Shown here in pieces: positions 2,094 to 61,378 of a stretch of 64,000 nucleotides of DNA. The DNA is from Halosegnis rubeus (GTDB lineage Archaea; Halobacteriota; Halobacteria; Halobacteriales; Haloarculaceae): NCBI RefSeq assembly GCF_009184545.1, contig NZ_QJOW01000003.1, positions 1-64,000 of the forward strand. Direction: 5' to 3'. Every line of letters starts with the position of its first letter. The first letter of the stretch is position 1. The position numbers were made by a program, and so were the translations under genes. The notes beneath the pieces are model-generated. The model ran no database searches, had not been told where the DNA came from, and worked only from the letters and a program-made list of their open reading frames with translations.

Positions 2094-4646
2094 ATGGAGA
2101 CGGACGCGCTCGGCGCGCCGGCGAAGATGGCCGACCGGCGCGAGGAACTCACGCCGATGTTGTCGCAGTATCTCGACTTATGCGAGCAGTACCCCGACTC
2201 GCTCGTCTTGTTTCAGGTCGGAGACTTCTACGAGACGTTCTGTGAGGCCGCCGAGTTGACGGCGCGCCTGCTAGAGATTACGCTGACGAAACGCGAGGAT
2301 TCGACGGGCCGGTATCCGATGGCCGGTATCCCCATCGACAACGCCGAAAGCTACATCGAGACCTTACTCGATGCGGGCTACCGGGTCGCCGTCGCCGACC
2401 AGGTGCAGGAGCCGTCGGAGACGGCCGGCATCGTCGACCGGGCCGTGACTCGTATCGTCACCCCCGGCACGCTCACCGAGGACGCCTTCCTCGATGAGTC
2501 GAACACCTTCGTCGCCGGACTCGCAGACGGGGAGGGCGACGAGCGCGGACTGGCCGTGCTCGACGTGTCGACGGGGGACTTCTACGCGACCGGCGGCGAC
2601 ACGCGGTCGGTACGCGACGAAATCGACCGCTTCGCCCCGGAGGAGGCGGTCATCGCGCCGGGGCTCGACGCCGACGCCTTCGACGGGGAGACGATGGTGT
2701 CGCCGTTCCGACCGGACGCCTTCGGCCTCGATTCCGCGCGCGACCGGGTCGCCGCCTACTTCGGCGACCCCGACACCGTGCTCGCGACCGACGCCGAGAT
2801 TCGGGCCTGTGGTGCGCTGCTCGCGTACGCGGAACACACCCGCGCGGGCGAGGCCGACCGGCTCGACTACCTGAACCGCCTGACCCGGTACGACCCGCGT
2901 GAGCACCTGCTGCTCGATGCGGTCGCGCTGCGGTCGCTCGAGCTGTTCGAGCGCCGCGGCGTCGGCGGCCAGACCGACGCGACGCTGTTCGATACCGTCG
3001 ACGAGACGGCGAGCGCGCTCGGCGCGCGTGAACTCACCGACCGCCTCCGGCGGCCGCTGCTCGACACCGACGAAATTGCCGCGCGCCACGACGCCGTGGG
3101 CGAACTTCGCGGCGACGTGCGCACCCGCGAGCGGCTCCACGAGAAACTCCGGGACGTGTACGACATCGAGCGGCTGGTCTCGCGCGTCTCGCGCGGGCGG
3201 GCGAACGCCCGCGACCTCCGGTCGCTCAAGTCGACGCTCGACGTGGTACCGGCGATTCGCGACGCGCTGGCGGGAAGCGAGAGCCAACGGCTCACCGCCC
3301 TCCACGACCGACTCGACCCCTGTCGGGACGTGCGCAATGAAATCGACACCGCGCTCGTCGCCGAGCCGCCAATCGAACTCACCGAAGGGGGACTCATCGC
3401 CGAGGGGTACGATCCGGACCTCGATTCCCTGCGCGCGACCGAACGGGAGGGAAAAAACTGGATCGACGAGCTGGAGACAACCGAGCGCGAGCACACCGGC
3501 ATCGACTCGCTGAAGGTCGGCTACAATCAGGTCCACGGCTACTACATCGAGGTGACGAATCCGAATCTGGACGCCGTCCCCGACGACTACCAGCGCCGCC
3601 AGACGCTGAAGAACTCCGAGCGGTTCGTCACGCCGGAACTGAAGGAGCGCGAATCCGAGATCGTCACGGCAGAACAGCGGGCCGACGAACTGGAGTACGA
3701 CCTCTTTACCGACCTGCGAAGCTCCATCGCGGCCGAAACCGAGCGCATCCAGTCGGTCGCCGACGCGCTCGCCGCCCTCGATGCGCTCCAGTCGTTCGCG
3801 ACGGTCGCGGCCGAGCGTGACTACTGCCGGCCGGAGTTGGGCGGCGACGCAGTGGAAGTCGAGGGGGGTCGCCATCCGGTGGTCGAGCGGACTCAGCAGT
3901 CGTTCGTGCCGAATCCGACGACGCTCTCCCGGGGCGATATCGCCATCATCACCGGGCCGAACATGGCCGGCAAGTCGACGTACATGCGGCAGGTGGCACT
4001 CGCGGTCGTGTTGGCGCAGGCCGGCGGGTTCGTGCCGGCGGCGTCGGCACGGCTTCCAGTCGTGGACCGGCTGTTCACCCGAGTGGGTGCGAGCGACGAC
4101 ATCGCCGGCGGGCGCTCCACGTTCATGGTCGAGATGACCGAACTCGCGACGATCCTCGACGCGGTGACCGAGCGGTCGCTCGTCCTCCTCGACGAGGTGG
4201 GTCGTGGTACCTCGACGGCCGACGGACTGGCACTCGCACAGGCCGTCGTCGAGCAGCTCCACGACGTGGTCGGGGCGACCACGCTGTTCGCGACCCACCA
4301 CCACGCCCTGACGGAGACGGCAGACCGGCTCCCGCGCGCGAGGAACTATCACTTCGCCGCCGACGGGAGCGGGGGGACTGTTTCCTTCTCTCACGAGCTG
4401 AAGCCCGGCGCGGCGAGTGGCTCGTACGGTATCGAGGTCGCACGCAGCGCCGGCGTTCCAGACCCCGTCGTCTCGCGGGCACACGAGCTGCTGGACCGGG
4501 AGACCGACGAGCAGGCGGGAGAGTCGAGCGAGGAGACAGAACTACCCGACGGCGCCGTCGGGCGGCTCCACGGGGTCGACATCGCACAGACGACGCCACT
4601 GGAGGCGCTGGAGCTGCTATCCGAGCTCAAATCACAGCTGGAGTAG
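2094..4646 (+). CDS. mutS: DNA mismatch repair ATPase MutS
   Basis: An 850-residue MutS1-type protein. The N-terminal mismatch-recognition domain has the Phe-X-Glu motif within VGDFYETF, followed by connector, lever and clamp domains. The ABC-type ATPase has Walker [10 protein letters not shown] at about residues 621-629, Walker [13 protein letters not shown] and the ATHHH switch. Full length and motifs indicate an active enzyme. No mutL is visible next to it. NucS, an alternative mismatch nuclease, is encoded 8 kb away. The gene ends inside the 3' end of the convergent phosphate transporter (15-nt overlap). A start at the second Met (2127) is also possible. Confidence 0.97.
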
Positions 4647-9318: not shown

Positions 9319-9350
9319 TTCCGATGGGCACCTGCTACGGCAGGCCGGAA
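9319..9350 (+). other. UACG-capped stem-loop upstream of the L15e gene
   Basis: CCTGC at 9331-9335 pairs with GCAGG at 9340-9344 across a TACG tetraloop. An outer stem pairs TTCCG (9319-9323) with CGGAA (9346-9350), leaving an asymmetric bulge of seven bases on the 5' side. UNCG-type loops are unusually stable in RNA. It ends 45 nt before the L15e start codon, so it may lie in that mRNA's leader. No expression evidence is available. Confidence 0.4.
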
Positions 9351-9395
9351 TGTGACACGACGGACGTGTTGAACCACGAACGCCCGCGGAGAACT

Positions 9396-39819: not shown

Positions 39820-39975
39820 ATGGACCGACAGGATGCGGTCATCGCGCTGGTAGCGGTGCTCGCGTTCATCGCCGGGACGCTCGCCTTCGACCCTGTTAGT
39901 GGTGCGGCGCTCGCGCTGTTTCTCGGGTTCGTCTTCGGTGCGCTCGTTCGTGGTCTCGATATGCGATGGACGTAG
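39820..39975 (+). CDS. 51-residue membrane protein
   Basis: A small protein with two hydrophobic segments (residues 6-23 and 27-41) around an FDPVSG turn and a short basic tail RGLDMRW. It begins 39 nt after tatCt, following a T-rich stretch that could serve as a terminator or promoter element. Family not recognised. Confidence 0.55.
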   Translation: MDRQDAVIALVAVLAFIAGTLAFDPVSGAALALFLGFVFGALVRGLDMRWT

Positions 39976-40713
39976 GAGGCGTGTTCTGACGGAATTTAGT
40001 TTGAAATCGACAGCAATGCGCTGTTTGCTCTGACTTCGACAGCACCGCGACCACGCTCGTCGCTTGGCTTCGGGGAAACAGCACCGCAACCATACCAACC
40101 TTTCCCCACGACGCACACGCTCGCACGGCGAGCGGTGCGTCAGGCCACCGCCTCGGTTGCTTACTCAAGCGACGTAGTGGCGTGGTCCGAGCGCGCCCTG
40201 TGCGCGCGAGTCAGCGCGAGGGACGAGCGAGCGTAGCGAGGGAGTCGGCTGGGGAGGCTCGTGGGCGGTGCTGTCGGGTGGACTGAAAGGGGTCCTGAAG
40301 TCGGCCATAGCAGACTTCAGGGTCAGCAAGACGCGCAGCGTCTTGCTCAGACGGGCGTGTCGCGTTCACATGGTCGGCTCCGTGACCACTATCGGGAGCG
40401 AACGCAGTGAGCGACCGATATGTCACGGGGACAGAGGGAGAGCGAAGCGCTCCCAAGCAGCCGGCGGTGAAGCCGCCGGCAAGACCGCGACACCCCCGGG
40501 ACTTTCGGGCCGTTCACAACAGAGCAGTCAGCGGGCGACACACCCAGAGAGTTCAAGCCGTACACAACAGCACTACGAGAGCAACCGAGATAGCCAAAAC
40601 CACCAACCGACACATCCAGCAGTTCCCGACCATCCGAGACAAGAAAACAAACCGAGTATCCAACTCCACCGAGGGGACAGCACGTTTTTGCTGACAGAGG
40701 CAAACGAACAGAC
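39976..40713. other. 738-nt gene-free region
   Basis: No convincing reading frame on either strand. It holds a short hairpin CGCTCG-CACGG-CGAGCG near 40120, the run of stem-loops at 40190-40480, and an unusually A/C-rich, G-poor stretch (about 40546-40680). It ends with a T-rich TATA-like CGTTTTTG (about 40683) in front of lipA. Confidence 0.7.
40190..40480. ncRNA. candidate structured non-coding RNA (five consecutive stem-loops)
   Basis: Perfect or near-perfect arms: CCTGAAGTC (40294-40302) with GACTTCAGG (40313-40321); AGCAAGACG (40325-40333) with CGTCTTGCT (40339-40347); GTGAC and ATCGG (40382-40395) with CCGAT and GTCAC (40415-40426); GGGAG-A-GC around a GAA loop (40436-40454); GCCGGCGG (40460-40467) with CCGCCGGC (40473-40480). 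It does not show the conserved motifs of RNase P RNA or SRP RNA as I know them. The strand is unknown. It could equally be a repeat-derived intergenic element. Confidence 0.4.
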
Positions 40714-41655
40714 ATGAGTCGCTCGCGTGACCGGCCCCGAAAGCCGGAGTGGCTGAAGATGCGTCCCCCCTCTGGCGACCGCTTTACCGACATCAAGTCG
40801 ACGCTGCGCGAGCACGACCTCCACACCGTCTGTGAGGAGGCGTCGTGTCCGAACCTCGGCGACTGCTGGTCCGGGCGCAACGGCCCGGGGACGGCGACGT
40901 TCATGCTGATGGGCGACCGCTGTTCGCGAGGCTGTAACTTCTGTGACGTACAGACCGGCGGCATGGAGTCGCTCGACGCCGAGGAACCGGCGAACGTCGC
41001 GAGCGCCGTCGCCGAAATCGGGCTCGATTACGTCGTCTTGACGAGCGTGGACCGCGACGACCTCGCCGACGGCGGTGCGGGCCACTTCGCGGAGACGATT
41101 CGGGAAATCAAACGCCGCGACGAGTCGATTCTCGTGGAGGCGCTCATCCCCGACTTCCAGGGGGACGAACGCGCAGTCCAGGAGGTCATCGACGCCGGAC
41201 CGGACGTGTTGGCCCACAACATCGAGACGGTCGACCGCCTCCAGTGGCCGGTACGGGACCGCCGGGCGGGCTACCAGCAGTCGCTCGACGTGCTCGCACA
41301 GATTGCCGACTCCGACTGTTACGCGAAAACCTCCATTATGCTCGGGGTCGGCGAGTACGACCACGAGGTGTACCAGACGCTGTCCGACCTCCGCGAGGTC
41401 GGGGTCGACATCGTCACGCTCGGGCAGTATCTCCAGCCGTCGACGCGCCATCTGGAGGTGTTCGAGTACGTCCACCCCGACAAGTTCGACACGTGGCAGA
41501 CCGTCGCCGAAGAGCGGTTCGAGTTCCGCTACTGTGCCTCGGGTCCGATGGTACGCTCCTCGTTCAAGGCGGGTGAGTTCTTCGTGGAGGCGGTCGCCCG
41601 CGAGGGGTTGTCGCCGGCGGAGGCGCGCGAACAGGCCCACGCCCGGGGGGACTGA
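40714..41655 (+). CDS. lipA: lipoyl synthase
   Basis: A 313-residue radical SAM enzyme that inserts two sulfurs into protein-bound octanoate. It has both clusters of the family: the auxiliary CEEASCPNLGDC and the radical-SAM CSRGCNFC, plus the GHFAETIREI region and the C-terminal SSFKAGEFF with its conserved Ser. It lies immediately before the 2-oxoacid dehydrogenase operon whose E2 carries a lipoyl domain, so the pairing is functionally coherent. No lipB or lplA is visible here. Confidence 0.96.
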   Translation: MSRSRDRPRKPEWLKMRPPSGDRFTDIKSTLREHDLHTVCEEASCPNLGDCWSGRNGPGTATFMLMGDRCSRGCNFCDVQTGGMESLDAEEPANVASAVAEIGLDYVVLTSVDRDDLADGGAGHFAETIREIKRRDESILVEALIPDFQGDERAVQEVIDAGPDVLAHNIETVDRLQWPVRDRRAGYQQSLDVLAQIADSDCYAKTSIMLGVGEYDHEVYQTLSDLREVGVDIVTLGQYLQPSTRHLEVFEYVHPDKFDTWQTVAEERFEFRYCASGPMVRSSFKAGEFFVEAVAREGLSPAEAREQAHARGD

Positions 41656-60195: not shown

Positions 60196-61378
60196 CTGCT
60201 TCCACGACGCGCTTTGCAGACACCGAATCGGTGTCCGTAGGGAGCGCAGTCTCCACAGGCGTTGATTCGGGACAGCCCGTCCCTACTTGTTCGAGACCGC
60301 GAGAACGGATGTTCCACGACGCATTCGCGTCTCTGTCTGCCTCAAACCCACACGACGGACACGAATGCTCGCGTACCCACAACGGTTTATCCGTCTCGAC
60401 GCCACATGACGCGCACTCTTTGGTCGTGCCTCGGGGGTCCACGGCGACGAAGTGCGTTCCTTCCCGCTCGCACTTGTATTCGAGCATTCGCAGGAACGTC
60501 CCCCATGAGGCTCCGGCGCGGTTCCGAGAGTTGCCCGGAAGTTCGACCAGTCCCTTCGCGTCCAAGTCCTCGACCGCCACGAGGTCGTACTCGCGGGCGT
60601 AGTACGCCGAGAGTTTGTGCAAGAAGTCTCGACGCTTGCGCTTCAGGTCAGCGTGGCGTCGAGCGACCGTCTTGCGCTGTTCCTCCCAATTGTTCGAGCC
60701 GTGTTCCTTCCGTGAGAGGTTTGCTTGAGCGCGTTCCAACCGTTCGCGTTCGTCGGAAAGGTCAGGCGACTCGACGGCAGTCCCGTCACTGTCGTGGACG
60801 TATTTTAGGATACCCACGTCGATACCAACAGCGTCAGTCACCTCGTCGGGCTTCTCGGGCGGGTCGTCGGGAGTTTCAACGCCAAGGATGGCGGACCACT
60901 TACCGGTGGGTTCGCGTTTGACCGTGACGGTCTTGATAGTGGCGCCTTCGGGGAGGTCGCGGTGGAACGTGATGGGGATGTCACCAATCTTCGAGAGCCA
61001 CAGTCGGGTCCGGCCACTCGTGTTTTTGAGTTTGAAGCCAGACTGACTATATGTGAACGATTGATACTCGCCCGGTGCTTTCCACTTCAACTCCCCGACG
61101 CTGTAGCCGTTCTGCTTCCGGCCTTTGAGCGTCGATAGGTTGTCGTACAACCGCTGGACGACTTTCTGCAAAACCTTCGAGTGAACGTCTCGCAGGTCGG
61201 CCCACCAGTCTTTCAGGTCCGGCAGACGCTTCTGCTCGGAGTACGACGACGTATCATCGTGTCTATTGAGACGGTGGAGGAAATGGTTGTAGACCTGCCT
61301 ACAGGTATCGACAGTCCACGCTAATCGCTCGCGGAGGTCGTCAGACGGGTTTAGCCGATACCTGTAGTTGTAGTTCAT
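60149..61378 (-). CDS. tnpB: TnpB RNA-guided nuclease (OrfB family)
   Basis: A 409-residue full-length TnpB. The N-terminal helix-turn-helix region begins MNYNYRYRLNPSDDLRERL. The RuvC acidic triad is intact: Asp187 in VGIDVG, Glu270 in VAVEDLD and Asp350 in DRDANAS. The zinc finger has Cys322, Cys325, Cys340 and Cys343. TnpB proteins cut DNA matching the guide next to a short target-adjacent motif, keeping the element in place. It starts immediately after the partner gene's stop. Its last codons are also the omegaRNA hairpin. Confidence 0.95.
   Translation of the reverse strand: MNYNYRYRLNPSDDLRERLAWTVDTCRQVYNHFLHRLNRHDDTSSYSEQKRLPDLKDWWADLRDVHSKVLQKVVQRLYDNLSTLKGRKQNGYSVGELKWKAPGEYQSFTYSQSGFKLKNTSGRTRLWLSKIGDIPITFHRDLPEGATIKTVTVKREPTGKWSAILGVETPDDPPEKPDEVTDAVGIDVGILKYVHDSDGTAVESPDLSDERERLERAQANLSRKEHGSNNWEEQRKTVARRHADLKRKRRDFLHKLSAYYAREYDLVAVEDLDAKGLVELPGNSRNRAGASWGTFLRMLEYKCEREGTHFVAVDPRGTTKECASCGVETDKPLWVREHSCPSCGFEADRDANASWNIRSRGLEQVGTGCPESTPVETALPTDTDSVSAKRVVEAGSPTLKKRTASAVSE

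Follow-up and report, generated by a model that had tools for sequence, protein, structure and literature searches.

Part of the window (the whole 64,000-nucleotide stretch of DNA that was analysed) is probably occupied by one member of a repeat family of haloarchaea, whose non-coding copies are dispersed over the chromosome and resemble BIME, ERIC and BOX. The family is dispersed, the fold of its + strand is conserved, its positions are stable between two related species, the modules at orthologous positions differ, and virus and phage collections are devoid of it. Its mode of operation is taken to be like that of BIME, ERIC and BOX, and it falls outside the REP/REPIN group on account of the transposase.

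The hairpin region sits between a small + strand ORF, which ends at 39975, and a gene that we take to be lipA, which starts at 40714; the names of genes near the region, lipA included, are presumptive and were assigned from sequence and general knowledge. Three disjoint perfect hairpins with stems of at least 8 bp were found within 40190-40545, whereas 500 dinucleotide shuffles averaged 0.08 and never reached three. The folding energy of 40176-40510 on the + strand had a z-score of -4.30 relative to shuffles, and the values for 40170-40520 were -4.19 on the + strand and -2.88 on the - strand. The dense run of stem-loops described in the first-pass annotation is thus real, and its GC-rich 8-bp hairpin, two-part long-range stem and GAA-capped stem were all located. 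Both hairpins described as 9 bp long are also present, one of them having 10 bp. The flanks had been called G-poor, which holds downstream (40511-40713: 22% G, 10% T) but not upstream (28% G), and the start given as 40190 was moved to about 40010, where the repeat begins according to self-BLAST of the copies in the same genome. The features of the window copy are given below, where G000 is the window genome, G001 is a congeneric genome, R1 is the covariance model of the core, and A3 is an alignment.

40010-40571, + strand: whole repeat copy, covered by at least two other same-genome copies in self-BLAST (locus L059, 841-1402 of G000)
40035-40160, - strand: upstream companion domain A, kept in most copies of the genus and holding a hairpin at 40110-40141
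40179-40264, + strand: conserved core (domain 1), matched by R1 at 54 bits, E = 1.2e-8
40181-40218, + strand: helix P1, 40181-40186 with 40213-40218 and one mismatch, from the R1 alignment and covariation
about 40189-40212, + strand: variable hairpin hp1, inside P1
40222-40246, + strand: helix P2, GAC at 40222-40224 with GTC at 40244-40246, enclosing the variable hairpin hp2
40245-40264, + strand: near-invariant motif TCGGYTGGGGAGGCKYGTGG, in 52/292 genomes (reversed control 0)
40280-40292, + strand: GGACTGAAAGGGG, the start of domain 2, which recurs in other genera
40293-40347, + strand: optional module I2, variably present among copies, with two hairpins that have perfect arms, 40294-40321 (9 bp) and 40325-40347 (10 bp)
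40350-40506, + strand: domain 2, stem P3 (40350-40364 with about 40485-40499, the long-range stem) around P4 (about 40380-40428), from the A3 consensus fold
40433-40482, + strand: optional module I3, missing in the G001 orthologue, with two hairpins, 40436-40454 (the GAA-capped stem) and 40460-40480 (perfect, GC-rich, 8 bp)
40485-40631, + strand: G-poor tail, the P3 3' arm followed by two degenerate repeats (40536-40560 and 40608-40631)

The order of the composite element is domain A, the core with or without module I1, GGACTGAAAGGGG with or without I2, P3 around P4 with or without I3, and the tail; in the window copy I1 is absent, and I2 and I3 are present. The degenerate tail units of this copy extend to 40631, beyond the repeat-derived interval of about 40010-40571, and tandem tails are clearer in L086 and L092 of G001 than in the window. 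In these two loci and in L127 of Halosimplex, only the P3 3' arm is repeated in tandem in the tail, each unit consisting of CGACACGCCCGGGGCTTTCAAGCCG and about 25-30 nt of spacer, an arrangement that would permit alternative pairings. Domain A is possibly a diverged, inverted, head-to-head partner of the core, as judged from a similarity score that was reached by 6 of 1000 shuffles, the sequence similarity itself being weak. The window genus and Haladaptatus (L124, L163 and L164) have in common a domain that precedes the core and has a linker resembling GGYTGSTCAATCGAGCGAYG, and in these loci, as at window positions 40035-40160, it resembles a second element on the opposite strand. Copies in other genera often form inverted pairs, which were found 40-418 bp apart in at least 13 loci, comprising head-to-head pairs at 40-63 bp (L129, L126, L150, L171, L173, L143 and L141) and tail-to-tail pairs at 74-418 bp (L225, L226, L227, L229, L231 and L132), and these pairs fall into narrow spacing classes.

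Scanning 1.05 Mb of loci for the pattern T-X-loop-X'-GCTY-Y-loop-Y'-(N)GTGG returned 20 distinct instances, and the reversed control returned 0. The two-hairpin plug-in was located 15 times at the core site, between GCGAGG and GTGGAYGAG, and three times at the domain 2 site, between CTGGTG and GGTGGACTGAAAGG. Its stems vary between taxa and its joints are constant; therefore one two-hairpin plug-in serves two sites. The form T-X-X'-GCTY-Y-Y'-RGTGG recurs in several genera (L061, L111, L119, L155, L172, L176 and others). Lineages diverge downstream of the core: the window genus shares its domain 2 with Halosimplex and others, Haladaptatus and Halorussus carry a CTCATTGGAGTCGG..TAGCTA type, and in family f3 the type is GTTGCCACGATAGCAG.

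The number of copies was determined by several searches. BLAST with 40170-40530 found about 20 places in the window genome and many in G001, R1 found 18 core copies in the window genome, and GGACTGAAAGGG occurs there four times. The core motif TCGGYTGGGGAGGYKYGTGG was present in 52 of the 292 genomes searched in the class (0 with the reversed control pattern). Exact matches to it number 0 to 46 per genome, and the range within a single genus (g24) is 0 to 38. Relatives of the core were detected with R1 in 67 of the 145 genomes sampled from the class, representing 30 of 58 genera, and the carriers include Halosimplex, Halorussus, Haladaptatus, Haloarcula, Halococcus, Natronomonas, Salinibaculum and Halolamina. 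The first-pass suggestion of a widespread repeat family is borne out by these counts, and the segment it likened to other haloarchaeal intergenic regions, GGACTGAAAGGGG, makes up the 5' portion of a conserved arm and recurs in many haloarchaea. One extra pattern match, coding-like and on an actinomycete contig (L121), is probably due to chance, as is probably a weak core-model match at window positions 4327-4420 on the + strand (21 bits, E = 0.02).

No match to the element was found in a phage collection of 50,697 records or in 2.9 million viral contigs, and in plasmids the window element had no match and a core query matched only four haloarchaeal plasmid records; an origin from a virus or plasmid was therefore rejected. 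Ten loci had no Rfam match at E values up to 1, and no Rfam match at gathering score lay in the hairpin region of the window, so that a known Rfam family was also rejected; no tRNA was found. Elsewhere in the window, at 9331-9380 on the + strand, there is an above-gathering-score match to the eL15-Euryarchaeota ribosomal protein leader (RF03144). A description of the family was not found in Rfam or the open-access papers searched, which does not prove novelty, and haloarchaea are not among the genomes of a REP survey (PMC12306157).

Positions were compared between the two congeneric genomes. Sixteen of 20 G000 loci share flanks with a G001 copy at 86-95% identity, and the counterpart of the window copy, L080, likewise lies ahead of lipA. 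In the nine orthologous pairs with full elements, I1, I2 and I3 differ in 19 of 27 states, which is approximately the expectation under independence. In five of the nine, the orthologue is less similar than some other copy; the comparison of orthologues with paralogues is based on these nine pairs. Such module differences could have arisen by sequence exchange among copies or by precise loss and gain at the same joints, and exchange is favoured. L219 and L220 carry reduced copies, and L221 comes near to being an empty site; the nearest empty-site case, L093 versus L221, is compatible with insertion or deletion, and neither a target-site duplication nor a clean empty site was established. MITE features (terminal inverted repeats and target-site duplication) were not seen by eye at the element ends, which are approximate.

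Conservation of the fold was assessed by covariation. Both-side changes were found at 10 of 20 pairs among 39 diverse sequences. In a model-aligned set of 118 core sequences (A4), 94.8% of cells were paired and 294 cells had changed on both sides, compared with 83 in shuffles; all slid control versions of this alignment were at most 52% paired, a control that only partly removes the alignment's bias toward the model. The rows of A4 were selected without regard to their letters. P3 and P4 covary within the genus as well (A3 pairs 43-73, 54-61 and 51-64). Compensatory changes above chance are the general criterion for a structured RNA, and folding of single-stranded DNA would be expected to give an equal signal. 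The structured character proposed in the first-pass annotation, and the compensatory base changes by which it was to be checked, were thus recovered, with the fold kept by such changes. The closing pair of P2 is U-A, C-G, U-G and C-A in 70, 39, 18 and 3 instances, respectively, and over P1, hp1 and P2 together there are 131 G.U cells against 14 A.C cells. Because an A.C cell corresponds to G.U on the opposite strand and G.U far exceeds A.C, the sequences indicate that the + strand is the one that folds, as RNA or as single-stranded DNA. Single-stranded DNA too tolerates G.T better than A.C, and the G.U excess fits RNA and, less strongly, single-stranded DNA.

The main rival to the repeat family is a functional multi-copy RNA, each copy giving rise to a non-coding RNA that is structured and has a conserved core, for example one that binds a protein or the ribosome, and the optional modules tuning the RNA. 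The strong covariation, the tolerance of G.U on one strand, and the use at two sites of a two-hairpin module whose joints are fixed and whose stems vary all favour this explanation, and it keeps some probability because unpaired motifs are conserved across several families, which is more than a purely selfish repeat requires and counts against the repeat reading. It is nevertheless unlikely, since close relatives carry anything from 0 to dozens of copies, no AT or TATA-like peak that might mark a promoter of its own was found at a fixed distance upstream of the core, neighbours and orientation vary from copy to copy, and modules at orthologous sites are nearly random. Similarly unlikely is the proposal of a multi-domain haloarchaeal RNA that can reach dozens of copies in a genome, with a near-invariant core, interchangeable two-hairpin modules exchanged between copies, and fold-dependent spread. 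A single RNA gene or a lipA riboswitch was rejected, given about 18 copies beside different genes; nothing ties the element to lipA or the dehydrogenase operon, which it precedes according to the first-pass annotation, as other copies adjoin many different genes.

An alternative is a cis-acting structure in the 3' untranslated region, by which the transcript of the preceding gene would be terminated or protected. Gene 3' ends constitute 172 of 291 element neighbours, with little dependence on element orientation, and in 90 of 142 cases the left neighbour shares the strand of the element, many sites being convergent, all according to a crude gene call based on acidic ORFs; elements also lie shortly after stop codons in L236 and L244. 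However, the other side has an excess of gene ends as well (82 of 149, by the same crude call), so that the effect of orientation is weak, the copy in L063 is, like some others, seemingly in a divergent region, and no terminator-like site was found in the window region. This explanation is regarded as improbable.

With respect to machinery, the reverse transcriptase domain RVT_1 was absent from 40 genomes, 20 of them element-rich, in a search whose control was positive, and SINE-like retrotransposition by a resident reverse transcriptase was therefore rejected. The Y1 transposase does not correlate with the element, so that a RAYT/REPIN system was rejected. TnpB does not follow copy number and is uninformative; in the window, a TnpB-type zinc ribbon (PF07282) lies at 60308-60505 on the - strand in a 409-codon open frame, and there are about 18 such matches in the genome. 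A decayed IS605-type derivative (PATE) mobilised by Y1, as known in Haloquadratum (PMC3119063), is very improbable, for despite two Y1 genes in the window genome and TnpB in all 12 genomes tested, 9 of 20 element-rich genomes lack Y1, 15 of 20 element-poor or element-free ones have it, and genomes with at least 24 element copies have only one TnpB domain.

The repeat family is thus retained as the preferred reading, with the reservation that a mobilising enzyme was not found among those examined (RVT_1, Y1 and TnpB). Copies would spread occasionally via an intermediate that needs the folded + strand, either RNA or single-stranded DNA, by means of some machinery, and once placed would stay put. 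Modules may then be swapped with other copies by ectopic gene conversion in polyploid cells. Read-through from a neighbouring promoter would produce a very stable RNA structure, which could affect transcript ends or stability.

About half of the genera sampled from the class carry the family, which can occupy entire intergenic regions, and single copies could otherwise be mistaken for regulatory RNAs of adjoining genes. With positions fixed and modules changing between species, it offers a natural system for measuring exchange among dispersed copies, and R1 allows haloarchaeal transcript data to be checked immediately for such RNAs.

Among known systems, the large multi-domain structured bacterial RNAs OLE, ROOL, GOLLD and HEARO are similar in their big covarying fold and variable arms, but they are in Rfam, whereas the haloarchaeal element matches no family there. 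BIME, REP and REPIN of Enterobacteria and Pseudomonas are likewise short, folded, intergenic repeats in dozens of copies, with inverted pairs and mosaic structure, and are found more often at gene ends. Dispersed intergenic palindromic units in many copies, combined as inverted pairs, were also found here, so that haloarchaea carry large BIME-like repeats; however, the haloarchaeal unit has 90-350 nt and several domains instead of a single short hairpin, and shows no link to a Y1 (RAYT/TnpA-REP) transposase such as that associated with REPINs. The PATEs and SMRs of Haloquadratum walsbyi are also transposase-free dispersed haloarchaeal repeats in which one kind inserts into another, and PATEs are mobile between strains and carry IS605-like palindromes close to their termini (PMC3119063). 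In contrast to PATEs, the element described here is stable in position and is not tracked by Y1. To our knowledge, no sequence is shared between the element and ERIC, NEMIS, BOX or Ype/Efa repeats, to which it is likened by architecture. These repeats (PMC1590033) are of the same length class and fold as RNA upon read-through. A modular composition is likewise shared, BOX being modular and ERIC carrying inserts. The haloarchaeal element differs from them in its archaeal host, in a strand-specific covarying core that is common to several families, and in its plug-in two-hairpin module.
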